Source: Arthrobacter sp. PGP41 (lineage in GTDB: Bacteria > Actinomycetota > Actinomycetes > Actinomycetales > Micrococcaceae). Taken from it: DNA of 64,000 nucleotides. The stretch covers positions 310,001 to 374,000 of the forward strand of contig NZ_CP026514.1 in NCBI RefSeq assembly GCF_002953935.1, written 5' to 3'. Made by a program: the position numbers and the translations under genes. The notes under the pieces were generated by a model. It did not search any database. It saw only the letters and a list, made by a program, of their open reading frames with translations, and was not told the origin of the DNA. Of the stretch, positions 7,122 through 60,003 are shown one piece after another (within the stretch, counting starts at the first letter, position 1; each line of letters starts with the position of its first letter).

Positions 7122-7134
7122 GGCCACCGGGGCG

Positions 7135-8420: not shown

Positions 8421-8519
8421 CGGACCCTAACTTCGATGAAGGTACAAAAAGTACGCATCGCGCAGCAGGGTTCTCCGTCCCTGACCGCAACTGAAAAAAC
8501 CCTGGAAGGGGTACATCTA

Positions 8520-9641: not shown

Positions 9642-9660
9642 TAAGCCGCTCTGAAACCGG

Positions 9661-9693
9661 GTTCCCCGCCTGCCGAAAGGCAGTGCGGGGAAC
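9661..9693 (+). terminator. strong hairpin between pstS and pstC
   Basis: Arms GTTCCCCGC-CTGCC (9661-9674) and GGCAG-T-GCGGGGAAC (9679-9693) pair over 14 bp around a GAAA tetraloop, with one bulged T. No T-run follows. Such a structure can protect the upstream mRNA 3' end or partly terminate, giving more PstS than transporter subunits. Confidence 0.75.
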
Positions 9694-9748
9694 TTGGCAT
9701 TGGGCAACGCATCTTTCCTGAATCAGCTACCGACCGAAGGGCCGTCGA

Positions 9749-41404: not shown

Positions 41405-43708
41405 CTACGGTAGGTCCTCTCCGGGCTGTGCATCTTCGTCCTGCTCAGGGGCTTCTTCTGTCAGCTGCAGGACGGTTCCGTGGAAGGCGGGCAGTTCGAG
41501 GAAGAAACTGTGCAGGTCATCCACCTGGCCAACAGCGTCGCCGCTGAAGAGGTCGTGGACGGCGGCCCCCGGCACCAGGTGGCTGGACTGGATGCTGCCG
41601 GCAATGTCCTGGTCCGAGAAGTTCAGCACGGTGACCCCCAGGGCCCCGCTCTCCAGCCGGATGACCATCACCAGCAGCCCGCGGTTGGAAACGTCCGGAA
41701 CATCGAGCAGGGCCCCTGTGGCTATGCCGCTTTCTTCGCGCACAGCCAGGATCCGCTGGAGCCTGCTGGCGTAGGAGTCCGGGTTCTTGAGCTGCTCGGG
41801 GAGCGGGCCGTAAAGGCTGCGCGCCCGGGGCATGCCGGAGGAGGACACTTCCGCGTCCGGGCTGGTGCCCATGATGTCGTGGGCCCCGCGGTTGATCCAG
41901 CGGGTGTCGCCCTGGGCGGTGAGTTCCTCGACGCTCTTCCGGTCCAGCGCGGTGATGCCGGCCAGGTCCCAGCCGGAAAGGGCGAAGACCCCCGGCTGGA
42001 GGGCGTTGAACATCGAGAGGAGGATGTGCACATCCAGGACCTGCGCTTCCTCTTCGGAAGTGATGGCATCGGGGTCCCGGATTCCCAGCGCGGCCATGAT
42101 GAAGCTGACCGATGTGCAGGCGATGCCGTTCGTAGTGAACACCGCGTTGTAGGGTGCGTTCTCGCCGGTGAGCCGCTCGCGCATGGTCTGCTGCACCTGC
42201 TCGGCAAGCTGCGCCCCGGTGAGCTCCTGCCCGTTGAGCTCGAACATCTCGTCCCGGTGTCCGGCAGCAAAATGCATCAGCTCGTAGGTCAGCTCATCAT
42301 GGTTCTGCAGCGCATGCACCAGCGAAGCCTGGTCCACGCCGATTTCCATTGACAGGCGCAGTGTGAGCCGCAAGAGCTCTGTGTCCGCGGTGACAAGCGC
42401 GTAGTGGTAGGCCGGCCTGGTGATGAAGTCGTACGAAAGGTCGGGGCCTGCTTCGGAGGTCGCCTTGATGTCGTCGATGGTCAGGTTCAGCTCCTGGAAG
42501 GAGAACCCGCCCACCTTCCGGATCATGGAGCCGATGAGCTGGTTGGCCGCCTCGGACAGCGGATGCCCCTCGGACCAGCCCGGCTGCTCCTCGGCACTCT
42601 TTTCCACACCGAGGAATCCGTTGGCGTCCAGCCTGAGCGCACCGGTGCCCAGGTCAACCAGGGAATGCAGCGCATCGCCCACCACCAGGCGCATCCCGGC
42701 GAACGTGGGGTCCAGCCAGTTGATGGACGGCTGTCCTGCCTTGAAGTAGTGCAGGTAAACCCAGCGGCGCGTCTTCCCGGTGGTGTCAACGATCGGCCGG
42801 GTTGCGCTCCAGTTCGTTTCCTTGACGCCGGGCTCATAGAAGATGACCCGCTGCAGCCGGCCGATGATGTACCCGGCCTTCTGCAAAGCCTGCTCGGCGT
42901 CCGGGCTCAGGTTTACCGAGTCCTGCCCTTCGGGGACGTCCGGCAGCAGGTGCCAGTCCTCCTCCGGGATATCCACCATGTGGTAGATCCCCGGGTAGTC
43001 CCGGAAGTTCATTTCGGCGAGGCGGAAGTCCGCTCCCTTGCCGGTGTGCCCCGGAACGATGTCGTCGATGATGGTCCCGCCATGGTCGGCAGCAACCTCG
43101 CACATCCGGCGGAATTCATCCTCAGTGCCGAACACGGGATCAATCGCCATGCTGATCCTGTCGAAGTGGCCGTCCACGCTGGGTGTCTGGGACCAGCCGC
43201 TGATGCCGCCCGCCAGTTTGACCGGGCCGGTGTGGATGGCGCGGATACCTATTTGGCTGAAGGCTTCCCACATGGCCGGATCGCCGAGGGCCGAGAGGAA
43301 GGACTGGCTGGACCTGGTGATGAAGGACAGGGGATATGCGGTGAACCATACGGGTGCGCGTTCAACGGCGGCCCGGGGATTCGGATGGGCGTAGGAGTTC
43401 TGCCACATGCTGGCTTGCCCTGAGAGCTGCCGGGCCAGCGTATTGGCGTCGCCCAGCATCGCCTGGTTCCGCAGCCATTCGACGTAGGCCGTATTGCGTC
43501 CATCGAATTCGAAGGAGGGCCTGGTGGCAAAGTATTGGCGGCGGCGGGCGGTGGGGCGCAGCGCCTTGGGCCGGGCAGGATAGAACTGCTCGTCGAAATT
43601 GACGTCCGGCTCCACCGAGGGTTCAACAGTTGCCGAAGTAGCTTCCTGGTCATCACCCGCAACGGTCTCCGCTTCATAAACACCGTCGCTGGCCATCGGT
43701 TCCCGCAT
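41405..43708 (-). CDS. GH13 alpha-amylase-family enzyme, trehalose-synthase-like
   Basis: A 767-residue protein with a GH13 barrel. Catalytic residues by motif: nucleophile Asp in [12 protein letters not shown], acid/base Glu in [11 protein letters not shown], stabilising Asp in [11 protein letters not shown]. The first conserved GH13 region is altered ([11 protein letters not shown] rather than DxVxNH). A polar N-terminal tail (1-45) and a C-terminal beta domain (about 670-750) flank the barrel. It is nearest to trehalose synthase/maltose glucosyltransferase relatives but longer than TreS (~600), so the reaction is uncertain. GAGGA precedes the ATG. No signal peptide. Confidence 0.82.
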
Positions 43709-43832: not shown

Positions 43833-44492
43833 CTAGGCCACAAGATTGGCCGCGGCAGTGTCCATATGTTCCCGGATGGTTTTCCGGGCCAGCGAGGCGT
43901 CGCCGGTTTCGATGGCCGCCACAATATCGTGGTGGCGGTCCACGCTCATGTTCTTAACGCCCTTTTCGAGCCCGGCGAACATGATGGACATCCTGATGGA
44001 CCCTTCCAGCGCTTCCCAGGTGTGCAGGAGTGTCTCGTTGCCCGTGAGCCGGCACAGCGTACGGTGGAATTCCAGGTCGGATTCGACGCGCTGCTGCAGG
44101 CCTTCCTCCTCGGCTGCCTTCATCGCGTCGATGGCCGAGCGGAGGGATGAGATGACGTTTTGGCGGTCCGGCAGTTCACAGAGCGTGCGGGCGGCCAGTG
44201 CTTCCAGGGCGGCGCGAACGGTGTAGATGTCGCGGATTTCTTTTTCGTCCAGGTGCCGGACGGAGAGCCTGCCACGGGGCCCGGCAGAGACCAGGCCTTC
44301 CTGTTCCAGCTGGCGCAGGGCTTCGCGCAGGGTTCCCCGGCTGATCTGCAGCATCTCGGAGAGTTCGGTTTCCACCAGGTGGCGGCCCGGTTCAAGTTCT
44401 CCGCTGGTGATTGCGGCGCGCAGGGCCGAGAGTGCCTGTTCGCGCAGGCTCTTTTTTTGCAGTCCCAGCAGCGGGGCGGTCAGTCCGGCCAT
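43833..44492 (-). CDS. GntR-family regulator (FCD subfamily), number 1
   Basis: A 219-residue repressor: winged helix at about residues 10-75 (LREQALSALRAAITSGELEP, ISRGTLREALRQLEQEGLV), then an all-helical FCD ligand domain with metal-binding Asp/His positions (ESDLEFHRTLCRLTGN, DRHHDIVAAIETGD). Start ATG 44492 is chosen over 44564. The palindrome CGACTGT-TT-ACAGTCG lies 26 bp upstream and similar sites lie between the MHS transporter and the isomerase gene, so this protein very likely controls itself and that divergent promoter. Confidence 0.88.
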   Translation of the reverse strand: MAGLTAPLLGLQKKSLREQALSALRAAITSGELEPGRHLVETELSEMLQISRGTLREALRQLEQEGLVSAGPRGRLSVRHLDEKEIRDIYTVRAALEALAARTLCELPDRQNVISSLRSAIDAMKAAEEEGLQQRVESDLEFHRTLCRLTGNETLLHTWEALEGSIRMSIMFAGLEKGVKNMSVDRHHDIVAAIETGDASLARKTIREHMDTAAANLVA

Positions 44493-44517
44493 GGCCTCTG
44501 TCCTCAATGTTGTAAGT

Positions 44518-44533
44518 CGACTGTTTACAGTCG
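44518..44533. promoter_or_regulatory. GntR operator, autoregulatory copy
   Basis: CGACTGT-TT-ACAGTCG is a 7-bp perfect inverted repeat with a 2-bp centre, 26 bp upstream of the regulator start. It matches sites at 47914, 47958 and 47985. Confidence 0.75.
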
Positions 44534-44553
44534 GTAGTAGTTTCGATAGTACG

Positions 44554-44597
44554 GCAGAAAGCACGGCGCCGGCCGGGTCCGGTGCCGTGCTTTCTGC
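44554..44597 (-). terminator. terminator of the MHS-transketolase operon
   Basis: A 19-bp stem with a single G-T pair (44554-44572 with 44579-44597; six-base loop). It separates the transketolase genes from the GntR gene on the same strand. Confidence 0.85.
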
Positions 44598-44612
44598 GGT
44601 GCGGGGCGGATG

Positions 44613-45632
44613 CTAGCCGAGTTCGGCGAGGACCTTTGCCACGATGCGGTCCACGGCCAGGCCGTAGCGGTCGTGCAGGGTGGGCAGTGCGCCGGCGTCC
44701 AGGAACTGGTCCGGTAGTGCCACGGGCACCACGCGCTTGCCGAGCCCTGCTGTGACCACCGCGGAGGCGACGGTTTCGAACAGGCCGCCCACCACTGAGT
44801 GGTTCTCGAGGGTGACGGCGAGCCGGTCGGTGTTGATCTCGGCGAGGACGGTTTCGGCGTCGAACGGCTTGATGGTGGGGGTGTGCACGACGGCGACGTC
44901 CACGTTGTGTGCCGCCAGGGCCTTTGCTGCCTGCAGGGCCCGCATGGTCATCAGCCCGGAGGAGATGAAGACGACGTCGTTGCCGCCGCGCAGCACCTTG
45001 GCCTTGCCGAGTTCGAACGTGTAGCCGTACTCGTCCAGCACGGTGGGCACGTTGCCGCGCAGCAGGCGCAGGTACGTGGGCCCGTCGCTGGCAGCCAGTT
45101 GGGGGACCGCCTGCTCGATGTCCACCGAGTCGCACGGGTCCACGATGGTCAGGTTGGGCATGCCGCGGAAGATCGCCATGTCCTCGGTGGCCTGGTGGCT
45201 GGGGCCGTACCCGGTGGTCAGGCCGGGCAGGCCGCCCACGATGTTGACGTTCAGGTTCGGCTCGGCCGCGTCCAGGCACAGGAAGTCATAGGCGCGGCGG
45301 GCAGCGAACACCGAGTACGTGGACGCGAACGGCACGAGCCCGGTTTCGGCCAGGCCGGCGGCGGCACCGAGGAGCAGCTGCTCGGCCATGCCCATCTGGA
45401 AGAACCGTTCCGGGAAGGCTTTGGCGAAGATGTGCATGTCCGTGTACTTGCCCAGGTCCGCCGTCAGGCCAACGATCTTGTCATTTTCCTGGGCGGCCTT
45501 GACCAGCGCGTGCCCGAACGGGGCGGAGCTGGTTTTCTGGCCGGGGTCGGCGAAGGAGGCGATCATCGCCGAGGTCTTCAGCTTCGGCTTCGCCGCTGTT
45601 GCGGTGTCGGGGGCCTCGGTGGTGGTGCTCAT
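44613..45632 (-). CDS. transketolase, C-terminal subunit
   Basis: A 339-residue protein covering the pyrimidine-binding (TPP) and C-terminal domains. The Glu that activates thiamine diphosphate is in FQMGMAEQLLLGAAAGLA; GYGPSHQATEDMAIFRGMPN is typical. With the next gene it makes a split transketolase that moves two-carbon units between sugars. The ATG at 45632 follows GAAAGG. It overlaps the N-terminal subunit gene by four bases. Confidence 0.92.
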   Translation of the reverse strand: MSTTTEAPDTATAAKPKLKTSAMIASFADPGQKTSSAPFGHALVKAAQENDKIVGLTADLGKYTDMHIFAKAFPERFFQMGMAEQLLLGAAAGLAETGLVPFASTYSVFAARRAYDFLCLDAAEPNLNVNIVGGLPGLTTGYGPSHQATEDMAIFRGMPNLTIVDPCDSVDIEQAVPQLAASDGPTYLRLLRGNVPTVLDEYGYTFELGKAKVLRGGNDVVFISSGLMTMRALQAAKALAAHNVDVAVVHTPTIKPFDAETVLAEINTDRLAVTLENHSVVGGLFETVASAVVTAGLGKRVVPVALPDQFLDAGALPTLHDRYGLAVDRIVAKVLAELG

Positions 45633-46531
45633 GCTGAAGCCTTTCCTTCGTATCCGGCGGTGAGCTGCTCGCGGCAGATTTGCCATTCGTGTTCGTCGAT
45701 ACGCATGAAGTGTGCCTTCTCGCGCTCCTCCAGCAGCGGCACTCCGCGGCCCACCTTCGTGTCGCACAGGATCACCGAGGGACGTCCGACGGCGGCGGCC
45801 TGGGCCGCTGCATTGTCGAACGCCGCCAGCAGCGCGCCGACGTCGTTCCCGTCCACCCGCTGCGTGTACCAGCCGAAGGACTCCCATTTCTCGGTCACCG
45901 GCTCGGTGCGGAGCACTGTGTCCGTCTTGCCGTCCGCCTGCAGGGCGTTGATGTCCACCATCGCGGTGAGGTTGCCCAGCTGGTGGTGGTGCGCACCCAT
46001 GGCAGCCTCCCAGGTGGAGCCCTCGTCCAGTTCACCGTCGGAGAGGAAATTGAAGACGCGGGCGCTGGAGCCCTGGTAGCGCAGGCCCAGGGCCATGCCC
46101 ACGGCAATGGTGAGGCCGTGCCCCAGGGAGCCGCCCGAGATTTCCATTCCCGGCGTGTAGGTGGACATCCCGGACATCGGCAGCCGCGAATCATCCGAAC
46201 CGTAGGTTTCCAGCTCTTCGACCGGGACGATCCCGGCCTCGGCGAGGGCGGCGTAGTGGCCAATTGCGTAGTGCCCGGTGGAAAGCAGGAACCTGTCCCT
46301 GGCCTCCCAGTGCGGATCCTCCGCCCGGAAGCGGAGCTGGTCTCCGTAGACCGCGGCCAGCATGTCCGCGGCTCCCAGGGCCTGGCCGACATAGCCCTGG
46401 CCCTGGACCTCGCCCATGTTCAGGGCATGGTGGCGGATGCGGTAGGCCGCGGCGCTGACCTGCGCCAACCGGTCCTGGACGATTCCTGCGGGCATTGCCG
46501 ACTCCGTGTTCGATTCGTGGGTGATGGTCAT
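45629..46531 (-). CDS. transketolase, N-terminal subunit
   Basis: A 300-residue thiamine diphosphate-binding subunit: GYVGQALGAADMLAAVY near the start, GGSLGHGLTIAVGMALG, and the TPP/Mg motif SDGELDEGSTWEAAMGA ending at DINALQADG (variant of GDG...NN). Split transketolases are common in dedicated sugar pathways rather than in the general pentose phosphate route. The ATG overlaps the MHS transporter stop by one base (TAATG). Confidence 0.92.
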   Translation of the reverse strand: MTITHESNTESAMPAGIVQDRLAQVSAAAYRIRHHALNMGEVQGQGYVGQALGAADMLAAVYGDQLRFRAEDPHWEARDRFLLSTGHYAIGHYAALAEAGIVPVEELETYGSDDSRLPMSGMSTYTPGMEISGGSLGHGLTIAVGMALGLRYQGSSARVFNFLSDGELDEGSTWEAAMGAHHHQLGNLTAMVDINALQADGKTDTVLRTEPVTEKWESFGWYTQRVDGNDVGALLAAFDNAAAQAAAVGRPSVILCDTKVGRGVPLLEEREKAHFMRIDEHEWQICREQLTAGYEGKASA

Positions 46532-47868
46532 TAGACAGTTACCGGATGCGGGGTGCTTTTGCTGGCCTCATCAGCCAGCTGGCGTTCGCGCTTGCCCCAG
46601 GTCTCCCTGGTGACGAGGGCGGCCCAGAGGCCGATGGCTGCGTAGAAGCTGAAGAGGAGCGCCGGGCCCATCCAGCCGAGGGCTACGAACAGCAGGGTGG
46701 TGACGAAGGGCGTGAAGCCGGAGACCATGGCTGAGATCTGGTAAGCCAGGGACGCTCCGGAGGAGCGGGTCTTGGCCTGGAACAGTTCCGGGAACCACGG
46801 GCCCTGGGCGCCGGCAAGCGAGTTCTGGCAGACGGCGTAGGAGATAACGATCGTGGCAATGACGAAGATGAACAGTCCGGTGTTCACCATCAGGAACATG
46901 GGAATGCCGAACAGGGCAGCGAAGGCTGTGGACCAGATGTACAGGGGCCGGCGGCCGATGCGGTCCGTGAGGCGGGCCCATGCCATGGTGGCGAAAATGC
47001 CGATGAACGAGGCGATGCAGAGGGCCACGAGGGTTTCGGTCTTGTTTGCGAGCTGCTGGGTGTGCAGGTAGGAAATCATGTACGTGACGGACACCGCGTA
47101 GCCTGCAGTCTCGGCGATGCGCAGGCCGATGCCGCGGACAATGCTCCGCCAGTCGGTCCTGATGACCTCGGTGATGGGCGACTTCACAATGGAGCCGCTC
47201 TCCTTGACCTCGTCGAAGACGGGGGACTCCGGCACCTTGGAGCGGATGATCAGGCCGACGGCCACCAGCACGATGCTTGCGAGGAACGGAACACGCCACG
47301 CCAGTTCACCGCCGAGGTTAACGCTGACCAGGAAGACGAGGTTGGCCAGGAGGAGGCCCACGGGGAAGCCTGCCTGCACAATGCCCGTGTACTTGCCCTT
47401 GGACTTCCAGGGCGCATGTTCGTAGCTCATGAGGATGGCGCCGCCCCATTCCGCGCCGAAGGCGAGGCCCTGCACGATGCGGACAAACACCAGCAGCGCG
47501 GGAGCCAGCAGGCCAACCTGTTCGTAGGTGGGCAGCAGGCCGATAAGGAACGTGGCCACACCCATCAGGATCAGGGAGGCAACCAGGACGGGCTTGCGGC
47601 CCACCTTGTCACCGAGGTGGCCGCCGATGATGCCGCCGATGGGGCGGGCGGCGAAGCCGACGCCGAGGGTGGCGAATGCTGCGAGCGTTCCTGTTACGGG
47701 ATCGCCTGTGGGGAAGAAGGCTGTTCCGAAATAAAGGGCCGCAGCGGTGCCGAATCCGATGAAGTCGTAGGTTTCAATGACGGCGCCCACTCCGGAGCCG
47801 ATGGCGACGCGCTTAGCATCCTTGGTGCCGTGAACGTGTCCACGCATTTTTAGAGCTTCGTTGCTCAT
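46531..47868 (-). CDS. MHS-family MFS transporter
   Basis: A 445-residue, 12-span permease of the metabolite:H+ symporter group (ShiA/KgtP-like): AIGSGVGAVIETYDFIGFGT at the start, GHLGDKVGRKPVLVASLI in the first cytoplasmic loop, and ARLTDRIGRRPLYIWS in the second half. Relatives carry organic acids or polyols. First gene of the operon with split transketolase; AAAGGG precedes the ATG. Regulated from the divergent region with three GntR-type sites. Confidence 0.9.
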   Translation of the reverse strand: MSNEALKMRGHVHGTKDAKRVAIGSGVGAVIETYDFIGFGTAAALYFGTAFFPTGDPVTGTLAAFATLGVGFAARPIGGIIGGHLGDKVGRKPVLVASLILMGVATFLIGLLPTYEQVGLLAPALLVFVRIVQGLAFGAEWGGAILMSYEHAPWKSKGKYTGIVQAGFPVGLLLANLVFLVSVNLGGELAWRVPFLASIVLVAVGLIIRSKVPESPVFDEVKESGSIVKSPITEVIRTDWRSIVRGIGLRIAETAGYAVSVTYMISYLHTQQLANKTETLVALCIASFIGIFATMAWARLTDRIGRRPLYIWSTAFAALFGIPMFLMVNTGLFIFVIATIVISYAVCQNSLAGAQGPWFPELFQAKTRSSGASLAYQISAMVSGFTPFVTTLLFVALGWMGPALLFSFYAAIGLWAALVTRETWGKRERQLADEASKSTPHPVTV

Positions 47869-47913
47869 GGTGTTTCCCTTTCGAAAAGCGGTCCGAGGGG
47901 GTTCGGCCGCTGT

Positions 47914-47995
47914 CGACTGTTAACAAATGATATCCCCAGTGTGACGTGCCTCATGCCGACTGTCAACAGTCAATGTTGGAAGTTGACTGTTAACA
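47914..47995. promoter_or_regulatory. divergent control region with three GntR sites
   Basis: Sites: CGACTGTTAACA (47914-47925), GACTGT-CA-ACAGTC (47958-47971) and GACTGTTAACA (47985-47995). They share the palindrome found before the GntR gene. For the minus strand, TTGACA (47966-47961) and CACACT (47943-47938) are 17 bp apart; site 2 overlaps that -35. Confidence 0.8.
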
Positions 47996-48011
47996 ATGAA
48001 AGGCCTACAGT
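47983..48011 (+). promoter_or_regulatory. promoter of the isomerase-SDR-kinase operon
   Basis: TTGACT (47983-47988), 17 bp, TACAGT (48006-48011). GntR site 3 overlaps the -35 element, giving a clear repression geometry. Confidence 0.7.
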
Positions 48012-48051
48012 GATTCACATCACCCCCCGCTCATCCAGAGGATCAACGACG

Positions 48052-48876
48052 ATGTTCAACTCCCGGCTCGGCTGCTCATCCATCAGCTTCAGGCACCAGG
48101 ACCTGCCGGCCGCCCTGCGGACCATCAGCGGCCTGGGCTTTGAAGAGATCGATCTCGGCGCCCTCCCCGGCGTATGCGATCACGTCCCGTACAACCTGGA
48201 CGCACCTGCCGTTGAGGCGGTAACAGCCGAGGTTGCCGCCTCCGGGCTGCGGGTCCGTTCCGTCAACGGGGATATCGGTGACCTCAATGCCGTACTCGAC
48301 GCCGGACAGCAGGCAGCCCGCGAGCGGCACTTGGAGGCGCTGCTGACCCTCACGCGGAATACCGGCGCGAAGGCGCTCGTCCTCCCGTGCGGTGCCCTCA
48401 GCCACGAACCTGTCCGGAGCCTTGGGGAGGACCTGGACCTTATTGCCGCCCAGCTCACCCACGCGGGTCAGCGCGCGGCGGAGTTCGGCGTCGAACTCTG
48501 GACAGAGTCCCTGCATTTCCTGCGCTTCTGCTGGAACCTCGAACGCGCGGAAGTGCTGGCACAGCGGCTGGCGGGCACCGGCGTCGGAATTGTCATGGAC
48601 TTCAGCCATATCGTCGCCGCCGGCGAAGACCCGCTGGAGTACCTCGAACGGCGCAAGGGCAGTATTTCCCACGTCCATCTCCGGGATGCCGTGCCGGGCA
48701 ACATCAACCTCAGCATCGGCAACGGCAACGCCGATTTTGCCGCAGGGCTGCGCCGCCTTGCGGCGGACGGCTACGGGGGGCACTTCTCGCTGGAACTCGA
48801 AACCAGGGACGTCACCCACGACGAACGCCCCGCAGCGGCAGCCAAAGCCGCGAGCTTCATCACTGACCTCATCTGA
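48052..48876 (+). CDS. sugar phosphate isomerase/epimerase (TIM barrel)
   Basis: A 274-residue xylose-isomerase-like TIM barrel of the hydroxypyruvate isomerase/tagatose epimerase superfamily. Metal/active-site carboxylates and His are in LWTESLHFLRF, VMDFSHIVAAGEDP, SHVHLRDAVPGN and FSLELETRD. N-terminus GCSSISFRHQDLPAALRTI is normal. The substrate is unknown; the context suggests a ketotetrose, ketopentose or their acids. Start ATG 48052; AGAGGA is 10 bp upstream. It is first of the plus-strand operon facing the MHS-transketolase operon. Confidence 0.85.
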   Translation: MFNSRLGCSSISFRHQDLPAALRTISGLGFEEIDLGALPGVCDHVPYNLDAPAVEAVTAEVAASGLRVRSVNGDIGDLNAVLDAGQQAARERHLEALLTLTRNTGAKALVLPCGALSHEPVRSLGEDLDLIAAQLTHAGQRAAEFGVELWTESLHFLRFCWNLERAEVLAQRLAGTGVGIVMDFSHIVAAGEDPLEYLERRKGSISHVHLRDAVPGNINLSIGNGNADFAAGLRRLAADGYGGHFSLELETRDVTHDERPAAAAKAASFITDLI

Positions 48877-48921
48877 CCATCGACACCCACTTCAACAATC
48901 CAAACGATTCAAGGGAGCATC

Positions 48922-49695
48922 ATGACCACCATCCAGCGCACCGCCGTACTCACCGGGGCAACCTCGGACCGGGGCATCGGCATCACCACCGCCCGCCGCT
49001 ACGCACGCCAGGGCTGGGCGGTGGTGATCCTGGACCTCGATGGCGAGAAGTCCGCCAAGGTCGCCGCCGAAATCGGCAATGAATTCAACGTCCCCGCCTT
49101 CGGCCACGAGATCGACGTCGCCTACGAAGCGTCCGTCACCGCAGCCCAGGCCGCCGTCGCCGCCGAGGTCGCTTCCGGCAACCTTCCGCCGGTAGGCGCG
49201 CTGGCCAACATCGCCGGCATCACTTCGCCTGTCCCGTTCCTGGAAACCACCCTTGAGCTCTGGCACAAGGTCATGGATGTCAACGCCACCGGCACGTACC
49301 TGGTCACCAAGGCATTCCTGCCGGACATGATCAGCAACGGCTGGGGACGCATCGTGAACATGTCCTCGGTCTCCGCCCAGCGGGGCGGCGGCGTGTTCGG
49401 CAAGGTTCCCTACTCCGCCGCGAAGGCCGCCATCCTGGGCTTCACCAAGGCACTGGCCCGCGAGCTCGGCACCACCGGTGTGACCGTCAACGCCATCACC
49501 CCCGGCGCCGTGGACACCAACATCCGCGTGGGCAGCACCGAGGAGCAGGAGGCCGCCATCAATGCCGGCATCCCGCTGGGCCGGAACGCCACCACTGAGG
49601 AAGTTGCCGCGGTGATCACGTTCCTTTCCTCCGAGGACTCGGCCTACCTCACCGGCACCACCATCGACATCAACGGCGGCAGCCACATCCACTAG
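48922..49695 (+). CDS. short-chain dehydrogenase/reductase, copy 1
   Basis: A 257-residue classical SDR: NAD(P)-binding TGATSDRGIG (residues 11-20), the NAG-like ANIAGIT, catalytic Ser in MSSVSAQRGGG and YSAAK (Tyr-x3-Lys). An acidic residue after beta-2 (ILDLDGEK) favours NAD. It is a close paralogue of the SDR at 54430, sharing ISAQRGGG/VSAQRGGG and the GVTVNAI segment. It probably oxidises a polyol to a ketose in this pathway. Between the isomerase and the kinase genes. Confidence 0.92.
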   Translation: MTTIQRTAVLTGATSDRGIGITTARRYARQGWAVVILDLDGEKSAKVAAEIGNEFNVPAFGHEIDVAYEASVTAAQAAVAAEVASGNLPPVGALANIAGITSPVPFLETTLELWHKVMDVNATGTYLVTKAFLPDMISNGWGRIVNMSSVSAQRGGGVFGKVPYSAAKAAILGFTKALARELGTTGVTVNAITPGAVDTNIRVGSTEEQEAAINAGIPLGRNATTEEVAAVITFLSSEDSAYLTGTTIDINGGSHIH

Positions 49696-49757
49696 GGAGC
49701 CGTAGCCACCCAGCGAACCCTTAGTCCCGCCCAGGAACCCACGGCAGAGAGCACATC

Positions 49758-51506
49758 ATGACAAAAATCTTCAACGATCCCTCGGAGTTTGCCGAGGAGG
49801 CCCTGGCGGGGTTCTGCGACGTCCACGGGGACCTGGTGCGCCAGGTCCCCGGCGGTGCCGTGCGGCGCTTCCGGCCCCCGCAGCCCAAGGTTGCCGTCCT
49901 CGCGGGCGGCGGGTCGGGACACTACCCGGCCTTCGCCGGCATCATCGGACCGGGATTTGCAGACGGCGCAGTGGTGGGCAACATCTTCACGTCCCCTTCG
50001 GCGCAGCAGGCGTACGCCGTGGCGAAGGCGGCTGAGTCCGGCGCAGGCGTTGTGTTTACCTACGGTAACTATGCCGGCGACGTCATGAACTTCGGCATGG
50101 CCAGCGAGCGCCTGGCTGCAGAGGGCATTGCCGTGGAGAACGTCCTGGTGACTGACGACATCGCCAGCGCACCGCCGTCGGAATCCGCCAAGCGCCGCGG
50201 CATCGCCGGTGACTTTACCGTCTTCAAGGTGATGGGGGCCGCAGCCGAGGCCGGCGCGGACCTCGCCGAAGTGGCACGCCTGGGCCGCAAGGCCAATGAC
50301 CGGACCCGCACCATCGGCAGCGCGTTCTCCGGCTGCACCTTCCCGGGCGCGGAATCGCCGCTGTTCTCCCTGCCCGACGGGCAGATGGGGCTGGGCCTGG
50401 GCATACACGGCGAGCCGGGACTGTTCGACACCGCGCTGCCGTCCGCAAAGGAGCTTGGCCGTGAACTGGTGGCACGCGTGCTCGCTGAAACGCCGCCCGG
50501 CGCCGGCGAACGGATGGCGGTCATCCTCAACGGGCTCGGCTCCACCAAGCACGAGGAGCTCTTCGTTCTCTGGGGCACCGTGGCGCCGCTGCTCCGCGCC
50601 GCAGGGTACACCCTGGTGATGCCCGAAGTCGGGGAACTCGTCACCAGCCTCGACATGGCCGGGGTATCGCTCACTGTCACCTGGCTGGACGAGGAACTGG
50701 AACCGCTGTGGCTTGCCCCGGCGGAAACACCCGCCTACCGCCGTGGCAACGCGGTCCGGGAGGCCGGCACCGTGGCGGCCGGAGGAACGTCCGACGACGA
50801 TGCGGCTTCTGCCCCGTTTGTTGCCACCGACGCCTCCCGGCAGTTTGCCGCCGCGGGCTTTGCCGCGCTGGAAGCCACGCAGTCCCTCCTGCACGACGCA
50901 GAGGAGCGGCTCGGCAGGATGGACGCCATTGCCGGAGACGGTGACCACGGGCGCGGCATGGTGCGCGGGATCGACGCCGCTGCCGCGGCTGCATCCGCTG
51001 CCCTCGGGCAGGGCGCCGGAGCGGGCGATGTGCTGGCAGCCGCCGGTGATGCCTGGGCCGACAAGGCGGGCGGAACGTCCGGCGTCCTGTGGGGAGCCGG
51101 ATTGCGGGCTTTTGGCGAATCCCTGGGAAACAGTTCAGCGCCGGAACCCGGGCAGCTGGCAGCGGCGGTCAGGGCATTCGCGGACCGGATCGTGCAGCTG
51201 GGGAAGGCGGAGGCAGGCGACAAGACCATGGTGGACGCGTTGCTGCCGTTCGCCTCTTCCTTCGCCGGGCTGGTGGCAGCAGGCGTGGAACCGGGCCGGG
51301 CGTGGGAGGACGCGGCCCGCGCCGCGACGGCGGCCGCCGAGGCGACAGCCGGCCTGCTGCCGCTCAAGGGCCGCGCCCGCCCTTTGGCGGAAAAGAGCCT
51401 GGGTGCACCGGATCCCGGAGCAACCTCGCTGGCCATGATCTTCACCGTCATGGGCCCGCACCTCACCGCCGCCGTATCCAGCGAATCTGTGGGAGCACGG
51501 CAATGA
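49758..51506 (+). CDS. dihydroxyacetone kinase-family protein (DhaK-DhaL fusion)
   Basis: A 582-residue ATP-dependent kinase with DhaK (1-330) and DhaL (about 375-580). DhaK binds the ketose covalently through His in LGLGIHGEPG; GGGSGHYPAFAG and GNYAGDVMNF are also present. DhaL has the metal/ATP motif DAIAGDGDHGRGM and GGTSGVLWG. Members of this fused type phosphorylate dihydroxyacetone or L-/D-erythrulose. With the RpiB-type gene directly after it, an erythrulose kinase role is attractive but not proven. It could equally recycle dihydroxyacetone made by the transketolase. Confidence 0.92.
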   Translation: MTKIFNDPSEFAEEALAGFCDVHGDLVRQVPGGAVRRFRPPQPKVAVLAGGGSGHYPAFAGIIGPGFADGAVVGNIFTSPSAQQAYAVAKAAESGAGVVFTYGNYAGDVMNFGMASERLAAEGIAVENVLVTDDIASAPPSESAKRRGIAGDFTVFKVMGAAAEAGADLAEVARLGRKANDRTRTIGSAFSGCTFPGAESPLFSLPDGQMGLGLGIHGEPGLFDTALPSAKELGRELVARVLAETPPGAGERMAVILNGLGSTKHEELFVLWGTVAPLLRAAGYTLVMPEVGELVTSLDMAGVSLTVTWLDEELEPLWLAPAETPAYRRGNAVREAGTVAAGGTSDDDAASAPFVATDASRQFAAAGFAALEATQSLLHDAEERLGRMDAIAGDGDHGRGMVRGIDAAAAAASAALGQGAGAGDVLAAAGDAWADKAGGTSGVLWGAGLRAFGESLGNSSAPEPGQLAAAVRAFADRIVQLGKAEAGDKTMVDALLPFASSFAGLVAAGVEPGRAWEDAARAATAAAEATAGLLPLKGRARPLAEKSLGAPDPGATSLAMIFTVMGPHLTAAVSSESVGARQ

Positions 51507-51523
51507 ATACTGAAGGACGAACC

Positions 51524-51994
51524 ATGGGACTGAGACTTGTTGTAGGCGCGGACGAAGCGGGAGTCGACTACAAGGACAAGGTCCTTGAGGACCTCCGGCA
51601 GGATCCCAGGGTCAGTGAAGTGATCGACATTGGCGTCAACCGGTCCGATGCTCCGAATGACTTCACCAGGCCGTATCCGTACGTGGGAATCGCGGCGGGC
51701 GAAATGATCAGGGATGGCGTCGCGGACCGGGCCATCCTCTTCTGCGGCACCGGAATCGGCGTGGCCATCGCGGCGAACAAGGTGGAAGGAATCAGGGCCA
51801 CCGCCGCCCACGATTCCTTCTCCGTGGAACGCTCCATCCTGTCCAACGACTGCCAGGTCCTCACCATGGGCCAGCGCGTGGTGGGCATCGAACTCGCCCG
51901 CCGGCTGGCCAAAGAGTGGATCGGTTACACCTTCGATCCGGCCTCCGCGTCTGCGGGAAAGGTCAAGGTCCTCACGGACTTCGAGGCCTGCTAA
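51524..51994 (+). CDS. RpiB-family sugar phosphate isomerase
   Basis: A 156-residue RpiB/LacAB-type isomerase with the active-site Cys in LFCGTGIGVAIAANK and the phosphate-binding region HDSFSVERS and TMGQRVVG. The family interconverts aldose and ketose phosphates; members in tetritol pathways turn erythrulose-4-phosphate into erythrose-4-phosphate. Start ATG 51524 follows GAAGGA; an in-frame ATG at 51503 overlaps the kinase stop (ATGA) and is also possible. Last gene before the second regulator. Confidence 0.9.
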   Translation: MGLRLVVGADEAGVDYKDKVLEDLRQDPRVSEVIDIGVNRSDAPNDFTRPYPYVGIAAGEMIRDGVADRAILFCGTGIGVAIAANKVEGIRATAAHDSFSVERSILSNDCQVLTMGQRVVGIELARRLAKEWIGYTFDPASASAGKVKVLTDFEAC

Positions 51995-52101
51995 GCCCTG
52001 CCCTGCTGCAGGAAACAGGCCACGATGGTGATCAGGGCGGCAATCGACAGTAAAGTTTAGAGGGCCCGCACCAGCGGGCAACGCCAAAGGCAGGAGCCAG
52101 G

Positions 52102-52815
52102 ATGGGCCGCAGGACACTCGTTGACGATCTCGTCGACGGCCTGCTTGACGACATCCTGGCGGGCAAGCTGAAACCGCACGATGCCATCCCTCCCGAAGGG
52201 GACATAGCAAAGGCCTACGACGTCAGCAGGCTCACGGTCCGCGAGGCCCTCAAGGCGCTGAGGGCGCAGAACATCCTTTACGTCAAGGCGGGGCGCGGAA
52301 CCTTCGTGAACCCGTCGGACAACTGGACCGGGCTGGACGCGATCTTCAAGGCCGCCTCGCATGGAAACGGCGCGGACCAGGTGTCGGTGGGGCTGATCGA
52401 AATGCGGCGCATGGTGGAAACAGGTGCGGCGTCCCTGGCGGCCAAGCGCCATACTCCCGAGCATGCCCGGCAAATGGCGCAGTGCATCGCGGATATGAAG
52501 CGCTTCCAGGAGGCCGGGGACCTGGACCGCTTCGTCGAAGCCGATATCGCGTTCCACGATGCTGTGCTCAGGGCCTCCGGGAATCCCTTCGTGCGGGCCC
52601 TCTTCGCGCAGTTGGGACAACTGCTCTACATGACCCGGCGCGAGACCTCGGCCGTGCCCGAGATCCAGCTTCATGCGATTGAGTACCACCAGAAGGTCAT
52701 GGAGAGCATCGTCAGTGGTGACGCCGAACTTTCCCGCCGGGTCATGGATGACCATATGGAGCAGACGTACCGCGATTACGAGCGCTACGTCCAGCACCCC
52801 GAACCGCAGGGCTAG
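52102..52815 (+). CDS. GntR-family regulator (FCD subfamily), number 2
   Basis: A 237-residue regulator: winged helix (LVDDLVDGLLDDILAGKLKP, YDVSRLTVREALKALRAQ) and FCD domain (EADIAFHDAVLRASGNP, IEYHQKVMESIVSGD). GGAG precedes the ATG. It sits between the kinase/isomerase genes and a second transporter-SDR pair; the GATGT-CAG-ACATC palindrome ahead of the transporter is its likely operator. Confidence 0.9.
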   Translation: MGRRTLVDDLVDGLLDDILAGKLKPHDAIPPEGDIAKAYDVSRLTVREALKALRAQNILYVKAGRGTFVNPSDNWTGLDAIFKAASHGNGADQVSVGLIEMRRMVETGAASLAAKRHTPEHARQMAQCIADMKRFQEAGDLDRFVEADIAFHDAVLRASGNPFVRALFAQLGQLLYMTRRETSAVPEIQLHAIEYHQKVMESIVSGDAELSRRVMDDHMEQTYRDYERYVQHPEPQG

Positions 52816-52879
52816 GTCGCTGGCGCCCCCGCCCCGGCGATGCGCCATCCCCGGTGGGCGGCGCCCCTTTCCACTCGGC

Positions 52880-52909
52880 TTGACGTAATCCGGATCACCC
52901 TTCTATGAT
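52880..52909 (+). promoter_or_regulatory. promoter of the second transporter-SDR operon
   Basis: TTGACG (52880-52885), 18 bp, TATGAT (52904-52909). Strong match to housekeeping consensus. Confidence 0.75.
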
Positions 52910-52930
52910 CTTTCTCATGTTGCTTCGTCA

Positions 52931-52943
52931 GATGTCAGACATC
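52931..52943 (+). promoter_or_regulatory. candidate FCD-GntR operator
   Basis: GATGT-CAG-ACATC is a perfect 5-bp inverted repeat with a 3-bp centre, about 15 bp past the predicted transcription start. It differs from the GACTGT-type sites of the first GntR regulator. Confidence 0.6.
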
Positions 52944-53031
52944 AGACCCAATGGGCAGCAGAAGGAATATCCCCATTTCCCTCGGACGCGCCGCCCCCAA
53001 CGCGCCGCGTCCGCCAGATAGAAGGTCGACG

Positions 53032-54402
53032 ATGACTTCACTCTCCATGCCGTCCGCAGGACTGGGCGAACTCGGCGAGCGCACGCTCCGCAAGGTCCGC
53101 CGCCGCGTCATGCCGCTGATTGTCCTGCTTTACTTCATTGCCTACCTTGACCGCAATAACGTAGGTTTCGCCAAACTCACCATGAGCGAGGACATCGGCC
53201 TCACCGCCGCTGCCTACGGCCTTGGCGCCGGCATCTTCTTCCTCGGCTACGCACTGCTGGAAGTTCCCAGCAATGCTGGAATGTACCGCTTCGGCGCCCG
53301 CAAGTGGCTGGCCAGGATCCTTATCACGTGGGGCATCTTTGCCACCGCCATGGCGCTGGTCAACGGCGAAAGCACCTACTACATCATCCGCTTCCTGCTG
53401 GGTGCAGCCGAGGCCGGGTTCTTCCCCGCGATCCTCTTCTACCTGACCCTGTGGTTCCCCGCCGCCCAGCGCGTCACCGTCCTGGGAATCTTCATCCTGG
53501 CCCAGCCCATTTCCAACGCACTCGGCGCCCCGGTCTCCGGCCTGCTGCTGCAGATGGACGGCATCATGGGACTCCACGGCTGGCAGTGGCTCTACATCAT
53601 CGAGGGCATCCCCGCCATTCTGCTTGGCCTGCTGACCCCGATGCTGATGACCGACCGTCCCCGTGACGCCAAATGGCTCAACACTGAAGAACGCGAATGG
53701 CTCGCCACCACCATGGACGCCGAGCTTGCCGCCAAATCCAAGGTCGGCAGCCACAACTTCCTGGCCGGCCTCAAGGACAAGCGCACGCTGACCTACTCGG
53801 CCCTGTACTTCGGCCTGGTCTGCGGCATCTACGGCCTCGGCCTCTGGATGCCCACCATCGTGGCCGCCCTTGGCAAGTTCTCCACCACCGAGGTGGGCTT
53901 CATTGTCCTCATTCCCTACTCCATTGCCGCAGTCTTTGTGTACTTCTGGAGCCGGCGGGCGGACCGCACGGGCAAGCGCGCCTGGCACTCCTCCGTCAGC
54001 ATGGTGCTGGCCGGCATGGGCCTGCTGGCCGCGGGCTACCTGCTCCCGGTCAACCCCATCCTTGCCCTCATCGCCCTGACCGCTGCGGCGATGGGCATCT
54101 ACGGCGCTATTGCACCGTTCCTGTCCATGCCGTCCGCCGCGCTCACCGGAGCAGCTGCTGCCTCCGGACTGGCGCTGGTGAACTCCCTTGGCAACCTCGG
54201 CGGCTTTGTGGCCCCGTACGCCGTGGGCCTGCTCAAGGACGCCACCGGCAACAACCAGAGCGGCCTGCTCTTCCTGTCCTTCTGCCTGTGCGTCACGGCA
54301 GTGGCCACGTACTTCTACGCCCGGAAGCGGCCTGAGGGCGACGCCGCCCTGGACCCCGCAGTTGCCGCTGCGGCAGAAGTCAACGCAGCCAAAGTCTCCT
54401 GA
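53032..54402 (+). CDS. MFS transporter, ACS (anion:cation symporter) type
   Basis: A 456-residue, 12-span permease. The start LIVLLYFIAYLDRNNVGFAK is the ACS-family signature; GLGAGIFFLGYALLEVPSN and GAAEAGFFPAILFYLTLWFP follow. Relatives carry hexuronates, tartrate, phthalate or sugar acids. ATG 53032 follows GAAGG; the frame is open to 52951. It is transporter number two in this catabolic block and is followed by the second SDR. Confidence 0.9.
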   Translation: MTSLSMPSAGLGELGERTLRKVRRRVMPLIVLLYFIAYLDRNNVGFAKLTMSEDIGLTAAAYGLGAGIFFLGYALLEVPSNAGMYRFGARKWLARILITWGIFATAMALVNGESTYYIIRFLLGAAEAGFFPAILFYLTLWFPAAQRVTVLGIFILAQPISNALGAPVSGLLLQMDGIMGLHGWQWLYIIEGIPAILLGLLTPMLMTDRPRDAKWLNTEEREWLATTMDAELAAKSKVGSHNFLAGLKDKRTLTYSALYFGLVCGIYGLGLWMPTIVAALGKFSTTEVGFIVLIPYSIAAVFVYFWSRRADRTGKRAWHSSVSMVLAGMGLLAAGYLLPVNPILALIALTAAAMGIYGAIAPFLSMPSAALTGAAAASGLALVNSLGNLGGFVAPYAVGLLKDATGNNQSGLLFLSFCLCVTAVATYFYARKRPEGDAALDPAVAAAAEVNAAKVS

Positions 54403-54429
54403 CCCCGAACCCTGACGAAAGATACACCT

Positions 54430-55203
54430 GTGACAACCACCCCATTTCCCGCTGAACGAACCGTCGTACTGACCGGGGCTGCCTCTGCCCGCGGCATCGG
54501 CCGGGCCACGGCGGACCTGATGGCCAGCGAGGGCTGGTCCATCGCGATCCTCGACATCAACGCCGAAGATGCCAAAGACGCGGCTGCGGAGATCGGATCC
54601 AACCGTGCAGTGAAGGCCATTGGAGTCGGCGCGGATGTTTCCGACGCGGCCTCCGTGGACCGGGCCATTAGCGAAATCGAAGACTCGCTGCCGCCGATCG
54701 TTGCCCTCGCCAACCTTGCCGGCATCAGCTCGCCCACAACCTTCATGGAAACCAGCGTGGAGGAGTGGGACAAGGTATTCGCGATCAACATGCGCGGAAC
54801 GTTTATCGTGTCCCAACGAGTCCTCAAGGGAATGATTGAGCGCAAGCTTGGACGCATCGTGAGCATTTCCTCGATTTCCGCCCAGCGCGGCGGCGGCACC
54901 TACTCCAAGGTGGCCTACAGCGCCTCCAAGGCCGGAATCATCGGCTTCACCAGGGCCCTTGCCCGTGAAGTGGGGGAGTTCGGCGTTACCGTCAATGCGA
55001 TCGCACCGGGTCCCATCGACACAGACATCATGGGCGGCACCCTCACCGAGGAACGCAAGGCCCAGATGTCCGAGGGCATCATGATGGGAAGGGTGGGTAC
55101 CCGCGAGGAAGTGGCCGCCCTCATTTCCTTCCTGCTCGGGAAGGACGCTGGCTACATCACCGCAGCGACCTACGACATCAACGGCGGCCTGCAGGTCAGC
55201 TGA
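54430..55203 (+). CDS. short-chain dehydrogenase/reductase, copy 2
   Basis: A 257-residue SDR, paralogous to the one at 48922: TGAASARGIG cofactor motif, ANLAGIS, catalytic ISSISAQRGGG and YSASK, GVTVNAIAPGPIDTDIMGG, and NGGLQVS end. The acidic ILDINAED suggests NAD. GTG start at 54430. It may act on a stereoisomer of the substrate of copy 1. The transporter gene before it is 27 bp away. Confidence 0.92.
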   Translation: MTTTPFPAERTVVLTGAASARGIGRATADLMASEGWSIAILDINAEDAKDAAAEIGSNRAVKAIGVGADVSDAASVDRAISEIEDSLPPIVALANLAGISSPTTFMETSVEEWDKVFAINMRGTFIVSQRVLKGMIERKLGRIVSISSISAQRGGGTYSKVAYSASKAGIIGFTRALAREVGEFGVTVNAIAPGPIDTDIMGGTLTEERKAQMSEGIMMGRVGTREEVAALISFLLGKDAGYITAATYDINGGLQVS

Positions 55204-58137: not shown

Positions 58138-60003
58138 ATGCCTCCTCTTCGTTCACGTACTGTCACCCACGGCCGCAACATGGCCGGCGCCCGCGCACTG
58201 CTGCGCGCCTCCGGCGTCGCTAACACGGACATCGGCAAGCCGATCATCGCCGTGGCCAACTCCTTCACCGAATTCGTCCCAGGCCACACCCACCTCGCCC
58301 CCGTGGGCCGGATCGTCTCCGACGCGATCCTCGCCGCCGGCGCCGTGCCGCGCGAGTTCAACACCATTGCCGTGGACGACGGCATCGCGATGGGCCACAG
58401 CGGCATGCTCTACTCGCTGCCATCGCGCGACCTGATCGCCGACTCCGTGGAGTACATGGTCAACGCCCACTGCGCCGACGCCCTGGTCTGCATCTCCAAC
58501 TGCGACAAGATCACCCCGGGCATGCTCATGGCGGCGCTGCGCCTGAACATCCCCGTTGTCTTCGTTTCCGGCGGACCCATGGAGGCCGGCCGCGTGACCC
58601 TGACCGACGGCTCCGTGCGCTCCCTGGACCTGGTGAACGCGATCGCCGACGCCGTGGACGAGTCCATCTCCGATGAAGACATCAACCTCATCGAAGAGAA
58701 CGCCTGCCCTACCTGCGGTTCCTGCTCCGGCATGTTCACCGCCAACTCCATGAACTGCCTCACCGAGGCCATCGGCCTGTCCCTGCCGGGCAACGGCTCC
58801 GTGCTGGCCACCCACACCGCGCGCAAGGCGCTGTATGAGAAGGCCGGCAGCACCGTCGTCGAGCTGGTGAAGCGCTATTACGACGGCGACGACGACTCCG
58901 TGCTGCCGCGCTCCATCGCCACCGCCAAGGCATTCGACAACGCCATGGCGCTGGATATTTCCATGGGCGGTTCCACCAACACCATCCTGCACCTGCTGGC
59001 CGCGGCCCAGGAGGCAGGCGTGGATTATGGACTGGCGGAGATGGATGCCAAGTCCCGCAAGGTGCCCTGTTTGGCAAAGGTGGCCCCGAACGTCGCCAAG
59101 GACAAGACCTACTACATGGAGGATGTGCACCGCGCCGGCGGCATCCCTGCCCTGCTGGGCGAGCTGAACCGCGGCGGCCTGCTGCACAAGGACGTCCACT
59201 CCGTGCACTCCGCCGACCTGGACGGCTGGCTGGACGACTGGGACATCCGCGGCGGCAAGGCAACCGAAGAAGCGAAGGCCCTGTGGCACGCGGCTCCCGG
59301 CGGCGTCCGCTCCTCCACCGCGTTCTCCCAGTCGAACGAGTGGACCTCCCTGGACACCGACGTCGCGGAAGGCTGCATCCGCTCCGTGGAACACGCGTAC
59401 TCCAAGGACGGCGGGCTGGCCGTGCTCCGCGGCAACGTGGCCATCGACGGCGCCGTGGTGAAGACCGCCGGCGTGGACGAGTCGATCTGGACCTTCTCCG
59501 GCCCGGCCGTGGTGTGCGAGTCCCAGGACGAGGCCGTGGAAAAGATCCTGAACAAGACCGTCAAGGAAGGCGACGTAGTGGTCATCCGCTACGAAGGCCC
59601 CCGTGGCGGTCCGGGCATGCAGGAAATGCTCTACCCGACGTCGTTCCTCAAGGGCCGCGGCCTGGGCAAGAAGTGCGCCCTGATTACGGACGGCCGCTTC
59701 TCCGGCGGCACCTCCGGCCTCTCGATCGGCCACATCTCCCCGGAGGCCGCCTCCGGCGGCACTATCGCCCTGGTGGAGAACGGCGACATCATCAGCATCA
59801 ACATCTCTCAGCGCTCAATGCAGCTGGAGGTCTCCGACGAGGTCCTTGCCGAGCGTCGCGAGAAACTGGAAGCCAATGGCGGTTACAAGGCCAAGAACCG
59901 GGACCGCCTGGTGTCCCCGGCCCTGCGCGCCTACGCCGCCATGGCTCTGTCTGCAGACAAGGGTGCGGTGCGGGATGTCTCGCTGGTGGAGAACCTCGTT
60001 TAG
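58138..60003 (+). CDS. ilvD: dihydroxy-acid dehydratase
   Basis: A 621-residue [Fe-S] dehydratase for the third common step of valine, isoleucine and pantothenate synthesis. Cluster Cys residues are in [12 protein letters not shown] and [41 protein letters not shown] and [20 protein letters not shown] are also conserved. The long form with three Cys fits a [4Fe-4S]-type enzyme. The ATG follows AGGATCGG. It is not beside ilvBNC here. The opposite strand has a long open frame that is only a GC-rich shadow. Confidence 0.96.

Follow-up and report, generated by a model that had tools for sequence, protein, structure and literature searches.

Several described systems resemble parts of a gene cluster that lies in a 64,000-nucleotide stretch of the 4.27-Mb genome of Arthrobacter sp. 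PGP41 (contig NZ_CP026514.1; G000:C1:310001-374000; hereafter, the window) and that encodes a split transketolase, TkN and TkC. The threonate/erythronate pathway runs through LtnD or DenD, OtnI, OtnK, and OtnC (the aldolase-DUF1537 type; a Brucella version is given in PMC10580937). Mycobacterium smegmatis brings erythritol and threitol to erythrose 4-phosphate (PMC12780249) by a pathway of EltD/DthD, LerK/DerK, LerI, and DerI, in which LerI and DerI jointly convert L-erythrulose 1-phosphate to erythrose 4-phosphate (PMC10733421). Transketolases include canonical enzymes, such as TktA of Escherichia coli, and split ones, such as that of Carboxydothermus hydrogenoformans (6yaj/6yak).

The Arthrobacter cluster is a divergent unit of eight genes, with GntR1-TkC-TkN-MFS1 on one wing and TIM-SDR1-DhaKL-RpiB on the other (Table 1). 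It appears to contain something new, namely a transketolase subfamily with a rebuilt substrate site, carried in a portable catabolic module that is probably of the acid type.

Substrate-site residues of TkN and TkC

TkN and TkC are homologous over their whole length to canonical and split transketolases, and they share the two-chain division into N and C parts with 6yak. Using E. coli TktA (from NC_000913.3) as the reference for residue numbers, we aligned 33 TkN and 34 TkC family members picked by homology (18 annotated contexts, the window, L166-L177, L129, L104, and L153). The generic set used for comparison consisted of the 26 next-best TkN matches, which are split transketolases and not a random sample. 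The thiamine diphosphate (ThDP)/Mg ligands D155 and N185, as well as H66 and H261, are retained in 33/33 TkN sequences, and the catalytic E411, as well as H473 and R520, in 34/34 TkC sequences. Unlike the canonical enzymes, however, all 33 TkN proteins have Tyr in place of H26 and Ser in place of H100, both of which are His in 26/26 generic split transketolases. In TkC, H461 is replaced by Leu in 34/34 members (His in 20/26 of the generic set), S385 is lost in all 34 (33 Tyr and 1 Trp; Ser in 18/26), and so is D469 (33 gaps and 1 Arg; Asp in 17/26). R358 is gone from 33 of the 34: L169 has Arg, L170 has Lys, and the others have Pro, Ser, Gln, Ala, or Thr (generic set, Arg in 25/26). Among other changes, new arginines at R112 of TkC and R277 of TkN mark the subfamily.

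The 80 best-matching loci agreed, with Tyr at H26, Ser at H100, and Leu at H461 in 80/80 and no Arg at R358 in any. The same residue pattern was seen in copies from Salipiger, E. coli, and Agrobacterium larrymoorei. Trp at S385 and Arg at D469 both belong to L177, a 48% relative placed in the family. Its gene (9091-11118, minus strand) has the C-part before the N-part in a single open frame, mostly shares the residue pattern, and is followed by two short-chain dehydrogenases (SDRs).

In E. coli transketolase, H26 and H261 lie at the C3 hydroxyl, H100 and H473 at the C1 hydroxyl, and R358, S385, H461, and R520 at the phosphate of the substrate. TkN/TkC therefore have an intact catalytic center and a rebuilt substrate site. 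The best NCBIfam transketolase model gave 200.0 bits for TkN and 224.9 bits for TkC, against a cut-off of 488. The 1-deoxy-D-xylulose 5-phosphate (DXP) synthase (DXS) model gave 179.7 bits against a cut-off of 465.95, and DXS is a single chain, whereas TkN/TkC are two. R113, R192, and Y106 of TkC appear equivalent to DXS residues that hold glyceraldehyde phosphate.

A tblastn search of plasmids with TkC returned 190 records, 183 of them at 60% identity or higher. The hosts were most often Pantoea, Rhizobium, Bradyrhizobium, Paraburkholderia, Caballeronia, Sinorhizobium, Azospirillum, Agrobacterium, Shinella, and Acinetobacter; the residue pattern is established for those plasmid copies that were aligned. 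TkC matched at E <= 1e-100 in 14 of 394 sampled genomes of the class, and the transketolase pair was present in 3 of 5,426 E. coli genomes. TkN/TkC belong to a transketolase subfamily whose members come from Actinobacteria as well as Alpha-, Beta-, and Gammaproteobacteria. We found no description of it in the literature, a weak negative in that the search covered titles and openings of abstracts, with subscription papers mostly outside its reach.

Conservation of the eight-gene unit

DhaKL was matched in 112 of the 295 genomes of the family. The matches listed fall into two groups, one of 32 full-length sequences at 68-100% identity (including the window) with two partial ones (75% and 87%), and the remainder at about 50-62% identity. 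All 17 first-group loci fetched (L035-L051, out of the 31 other full-length orthologues listed) have all eight genes, arranged divergently in one and the same order; such consistency (17/17 loci) exceeds what chance would give. In two second-group loci (L052 and L053), only DhaKL and RpiB were seen.

A wider sample of relatives consisted of the best 80 of 438 from a TkC-alignment scan of named genomes, with a lean to Arthrobacter. GntR1, TkC, TkN, MFS1, and SDR1 occur together in 77 of them. Two exceptions, L159 and L153, are on short contigs, and in the third, L104, TkN and TkC are beside other genes. By eye, the pair in L104 (around 4932-11017) lies without its usual partners near an apparent ABC transporter set.

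In 75 of the relatives it was possible to assess the stretch beyond SDR1, where we found DhaKL in 53, RpiB in 49, and TIM in 63. DhaKL was not found (no match at 65% identity within 5.8-6.7 kb beyond SDR1) in the other 22 of these 75 loci; one of them, L136, has an RpiB remnant next to SDR1. TIM, DhaKL, and RpiB were all not found in the Rhodococcus loci L129, L133, and L144. Because the 22 loci retain the SDR, transketolase, permease, and regulator genes, these make up the constant core, and the kinase and isomerase are optional.

The region between the wings contains TGACTGTYRACA-type motifs at 47915-47925, 47958-47972, and 47984-47995. Counted as separate sites rather than overlapping matches, the MFS1-TIM (or MFS1-SDR1) regions of relatives had at least two in 76 of 78 cases and three in 64; one region had a single site and one had none. 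The divergent regions (16.2 kb) contained 217 sites, and the remaining 1.57 Mb of these loci contained 10. Since the operator-like motifs lie between the wings, both are likely controlled together, with GntR1 presumably binding the motif. A fourth match in the window, at 16952-16962, is far from the cluster.

Partners of the transketolase in other bacteria

From the 190 plasmid records, 18 contexts were chosen for breadth. Their gene table is incomplete: in L185, an Arthrobacter "hypothetical protein" beside SDR1 is a TIM barrel at 61% identity (BLASTP). The clusters include an SDR or NAD(P)-dependent oxidoreductase in 17/18 contexts (none is adjacent in L196) and a transporter in 18/18. Eleven of the transporters are of the tripartite ATP-independent periplasmic (TRAP) type and seven belong to the major facilitator superfamily (MFS), two being like MFS1 and two like MFS2 at 40-47%. 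DhaK/DhaL is found in one context (Shinella) and a TIM barrel in four (three annotated, plus L185), and RpiB is annotated in none of the 18 in this incomplete table. TRAP transporters are reported to be limited to carboxylates (PMC4646407), ethanolamine being an exception (PMC5812351).

In more distant Actinobacteria, profile matches identify a GntP permease plus a HIBADH-type dehydrogenase in L174, and L167, L169, and L171-L173 carry one or both by eye. Four HIBADH-type partners scored best on the L-threonate dehydrogenase model NF043037 (204.1, 236.7, 314.5, and 314.1 bits), all below its cut-off of 350. In Rhizobium, a lactonase-like protein is encoded downstream (NF052480, 110.9 bits against a cut-off of 400), and the Skermanella context also has an annotated D-2-hydroxyacid dehydrogenase and tkt.

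Shinella and Salipiger combine an SDR, a TIM barrel, a DhaK-type kinase, and the split transketolase. Their TIM barrels gave no BLASTP match to the window TIM, and the DhaK proteins of Salipiger and Shinella are 38% and 41% identical to that of the window. Because the sequences differ in this way, repeated recruitment of the TIM and DhaK functions seems likely. The Salipiger cluster is followed (L224, 9362-13149) by another ThDP enzyme, whose annotation is acetolactate synthase, together with two dehydrogenases.

The TRAP binding protein of Azospirillum matches 4oan at 408.6 bits, and that of Shinella matches 4p47, 4p9k, 7bbr, and 4pdh. As a hint to the substrate these matches were set aside. 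TRAP ligands on record include 2-acetolactate and pantoate/D-erythronate (PMC5812351), and structures with pantoate and erythronate exist (PMC11668362). An acetyl-transferring enzyme could also be considered, for which 2-acetolactate would suit as the substrate.

Two observations concern the surroundings of the module in enteric bacteria. On the Klebsiella aerogenes plasmid pYD-K10_1 (L181, typed as conjugative), it is near a Tn3-family transposase and a gene of the aminoglycoside phosphotransferase family. On the E. coli chromosome (L206, 5858-13191; L223, 4858-12191), the series MFS-SDR-TkN-TkC-adhE-RraA adjoins an operon of the fructose-asparagine type.

Gene content and the adjoining cassette

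Genes were identified from open reading frame calls, Pfam (ten proteins), and NCBIfam profile scans (Table 1). Every gene named in the initial annotation is present where it was placed, and the TIM-barrel gene at 48052-48876 is an addition to its title. The reading frames of TkN and TkC share 4 bases, and those of MFS1 and TkN share 1 base.

Table 1. Features of the divergent unit and of the adjoining cassette, in window coordinates
Feature	Position	Strand	Basis
GntR1, GntR/FCD regulator	43833..44564 (start codon uncertain)	-	Pfam GntR + FCD
TkC, C-terminal (Pyr + C domain) subunit of non-canonical split transketolase	44613..45632	-	Pfam Transket_pyr + Transketolase_C; residue signature
TkN, N-terminal (ThDP-binding) subunit of non-canonical split transketolase	45629..46531	-	Pfam Transketolase_N
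MFS1, metabolite:H+ symporter (MHS) type permease	46531..47868	-	TIGR00883, 338.3 bits, below cut-off of 443.45
Divergent promoter region (three TGACTGTYRACA-type motifs)	47869..48051	no strand	
TIM, xylose-isomerase-like TIM barrel (AP_endonuc_2), isomerase/epimerase-like	48052..48876 (approximate in Pfam scan)	+	Pfam PF01261
SDR1, short-chain dehydrogenase	48922..49695	+	Pfam adh_short_C2
DhaKL, fused Dak1-Dak2 kinase	49758..51506	+	Pfam Dak1 + Dak2; NF011049, 753.6 bits, cut-off 492
RpiB-type sugar-phosphate isomerase	51524..51994 (alternative start 51503)	+	Best solved relatives 3qd5, 3sdw
GntR2, GntR/FCD regulator, separate cassette	52102..52815	+	Pfam
MFS2, separate cassette	52951..54402 (start uncertain)	+	TIGR00893, galactonate-transporter-like, 287.2 bits, cut-off 395
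SDR2, separate cassette	54430..55203	+	Pfam; 51% identical to SDR1

The initial annotation had described one composite block reaching to 55203. We find instead that the conserved divergent unit spans 43833-51994 and that the last three genes (52102-55203) are a cassette of their own. A single 11-kb pathway was rejected, as the order GntR2-MFS2-SDR2 is kept in six other loci (L210-L215), and in L222 without GntR2. Six further MFS2 relatives (55-65%) have only a distant SDR alongside. Apart from the window, just 1 of the 80 relatives has the cassette next to the eight-gene unit: L092 of Pseudarthrobacter sp. GA104, a near-identical relative with 96-99% identity in the matching genes. In all five genomes checked of the six with L210-L215, the transketolase cluster is on another contig or >500 kb away. 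The "duplicated" SDR, transporter, and regulator sets of the initial annotation are duplicates by category; by sequence this holds only for the SDRs, with GntR1 and GntR2 being 24% identical and MFS1 and MFS2 showing no meaningful similarity. In three genomes (G039, G177, and G018), the cassette lies within about 10 kb of the second type of DhaKL and therefore may serve the use of a polyol or erythrulose. The polyol reading, which is unsupported as the main function of the eight-gene unit, may thus still hold for the cassette.

The AlphaFold2 model of TIM is of medium quality (mean predicted local distance difference test score, 76.5; 23 sequences). Its top Foldseek matches were YcjR 3-keto-glucoside 4-epimerase and D-tagatose and L-ribulose 3-epimerases. 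E152, D183, H209, and E248, which we take to be metal ligands, are invariant in the 23 sequences, and from the model TIM is likely an isomerase or epimerase. Assignment of TIM as OtnI was dropped for want of support in its NCBIfam hits. The DhaK domain of DhaKL retains the His and Asp motifs. The K of KNYTGD, as found in the genome's own DhaK (L001), is replaced by G in the window DhaK, in the copy at 2.36 Mb, and in Shinella. On this replacement, which is suggestive only, a free-standing dihydroxyacetone kinase was set aside.

Elsewhere, the genome encodes a transketolase (at 2.18 Mb) and two further RpiB proteins, and a role of the cluster as extra housekeeping copies was not retained. Flanking genes in the window look, by eye, like a glycoside protein of the amylase or sucrose-phosphorylase type (41405-43708, minus strand) and a dihydroxyacid dehydratase (58138-60003, plus strand).

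Function of the unit

The substrates and products named below are predictions from gene content and sequence. We consider it about an even call that the eight-gene unit is a sugar-acid catabolic divergon, in which a keto-aldonate rather than a sugar phosphate gives up the two-carbon unit. MFS1 would import the aldonate, and SDR1, replaced elsewhere by a threonate-dehydrogenase-like enzyme, would oxidize it to a keto-aldonate with the group HOCH2-CO-CHOH-. The TIM barrel would shift the keto group if needed, TkN/TkC would cut the bond next to it with release of a small oxo-acid, and the two-carbon unit would pass to an acceptor, most simply to glyceraldehyde 3-phosphate to give xylulose 5-phosphate. 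DhaKL would phosphorylate a hydroxymethyl ketone, either 3-oxotetronate or dihydroxyacetone from its decarboxylation, and RpiB would help to recycle phosphorylated sugars.

The most likely specific case is the C4 version, whose overall probability we set at about one third. Here, threonate or erythronate would be oxidized to 3-oxotetronate and then yield glyoxylate and xylulose 5-phosphate. 3-Oxotetronate, the C4 aldonate oxidized at the beta carbon, carries the HOCH2-CO-CHOH- donor motif, and its cleavage gives glyoxylate. Threonate, a decay product of vitamin C, is the prime candidate substrate. The C4 version is suggested because it fits the transporters and the LtnD-like partners. It also fits neighbors seen in relatives (the lactonase-like protein in Rhizobium; the D-2-hydroxyacid dehydrogenase and tkt in Skermanella), as well as a TIM barrel and kinase that mirror OtnI and OtnK. 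The window shares a dehydrogenase, a TIM barrel, a kinase, and a permease with the threonate/erythronate pathway, whose OtnI we take to be a TIM barrel of the AP_endonuc_2 kind. The partner dehydrogenases of relatives are nearest to L-threonate dehydrogenase, although SDR1 is of another family. Unlike that pathway, the window has a transketolase-like enzyme and a DhaK-type kinase instead; neither a DUF1537 kinase nor an OtnC-type enzyme was among the ten window proteins scanned.

A number of observations weigh against a sugar-acid route and its C4 version. The contrast with the generic set is clean only at H26, H100, and R358, because that set itself varies at H461, S385, and D469. That R112 of TkC and R277 of TkN hold the carboxylate is a guess. 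No dehydrogenase passed the threonate-dehydrogenase cut-off. There was no OtnI-named model among the six NCBIfam hits of TIM, in a library that was not checked for one. RpiB is better suited to erythrulose phosphate than to a sugar-acid route. In the two E. coli genomes that were read, MFS-SDR-TkN-TkC is followed by adhE and an RraA-like gene, for which glyoxylate offers no explanation; these two genes might be better accounted for by a five-carbon 4-oxo-acid that yields tartronate semialdehyde. LtnD and DenD yield a 2-oxo acid (PMC10580937), so a 3-oxo donor needs an isomerase or another regiochemistry. No TIM barrel was seen in 12 of the 75 evaluable loci or in 14 of the 18 plasmid contexts (in the incomplete gene table).

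More specifically, TkN/TkC may be a distinct ThDP subfamily acting as a keto-aldonate:aldose-phosphate glycolaldehyde transferase. This enzyme would provide a two-step entry of C4-C6 sugar acids into the pentose phosphate pathway, bypassing the DUF1537 kinase and aldolase, and the Arthrobacter version would have a further branch, formed by the kinase and the isomerase, that acts on the same intermediate. We advance this proposal tentatively, at somewhat less than an even chance.

Tetritol or erythrulose catabolism is an unlikely main function. In it, SDR1 would form erythrulose, DhaKL would phosphorylate it, TIM would epimerize the product, and RpiB would yield erythrose 4-phosphate, with the transketolase only recycling. 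The window does have a DAK-type kinase, an RpiB-type isomerase, and an SDR, the families of the M. smegmatis pathway enzymes, and the TIM model resembles ketose 3-epimerases. As the initial annotation held, DhaKL and RpiB resemble those of a tetritol-type locus, being 56-57% identical to the copies at 2.36 Mb, and the LerI/DerI steps and the erythritol/threitol route of M. smegmatis are known (PMC10733421, PMC12780249). Against this, SDR, transketolase, permease, and regulator persist in the 22 of 75 relatives without DhaKL, the transketolase has lost sugar-phosphate residues, and relatives use TRAP or GntP transporters. With the GolD/DthD model NF005309, SDR1 scored 147.2 and SDR2 161.2 bits, neither passing the cut-off of 286. 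A fuller locus lies elsewhere in the genome, at 2.36 Mb (L034, G000:C1:2354000-2372000, about 3272-11663), with GntR, TIM (334 aa), DhaKL, RpiB, a 3HCDH protein, an SDR, an MFS protein, and TpiA; a TpiA-type (LerI) protein is absent from the ten window proteins scanned. L034 looks like the tetritol/erythrulose locus of this genome, and the tetritol route fits it better than it fits the window cluster, of which tetritol use would be a side branch at most. An Erwinia plasmid (L207) has a set similar to L034.

Still less probable is a branched-chain C5 route, in which TkN/TkC would cleave free apulose or oxo-isoapionate to dihydroxyacetone (for DhaKL) or hydroxypyruvate, or TIM would decarboxylate an oxo-acid to erythrulose. 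With H26 lost, the site could accommodate a branched carbon, DhaKL would be a natural next step, and relatives have the D-2-hydroxyacid dehydrogenase and the lactonase-like protein nearby. The steps of the apiose and apionate pathways are known, but no window gene was identified as one of their enzymes, in an analysis in which no reference sequence was compared. The likeness to the apulose-4-phosphate transketolase pathway would be a split transketolase with a DhaK-type kinase in reach. However, the ten window proteins scanned contain no FGGY kinase, as the initial annotation had remarked, and the phosphate site for apulose 4-phosphate is largely gone. The apulose-phosphate cleavage it had entertained is unsupported, because R358, S385, and H461 of the phosphate site are lost. 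Its wider statement that no single textbook pathway fits the gene set stands, as does the weight it gave to the split transketolase, whose non-canonical character it could not see.

Very unlikely is the assimilation of aldehydes, with the transketolase adding a two-carbon unit to formaldehyde or glycolaldehyde and DhaKL taking the dihydroxyacetone or erythrulose formed. It would account jointly for DhaKL and RpiB, and transketolase is known to make erythrulose from hydroxypyruvate and glycolaldehyde (PMC5836872), but it leaves unexplained both the dedicated transporter in 18/18 plasmid contexts and the 22 of 75 relatives without DhaKL. We regard as highly improbable a sulfosugar-type transketolase pathway, with a sulfonate for the phosphate and RpiB as a sulfo-tetrose isomerase: presumably it too joins a split transketolase, an RpiB-like isomerase, a reductase, and a TRAP transporter, but no sulfonate gene was noticed in the contexts read (no search was aimed at one), and the incomplete table of 18 plasmid contexts has no annotated RpiB.

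The sugar-acid reading thus concerns a subfamily that swaps H26 and H100, keeps the catalytic center, and travels with its own dehydrogenase, transporter, and regulator. If true, it would add a new cleavage step to sugar-acid catabolism and give a meaning to "transketolase family protein" genes in rhizobia, Klebsiella, and some E. coli. It would also provide a template from nature for transketolases working on acids rather than on sugar phosphates, and soil, plant-associated, and enteric bacteria would share the route.

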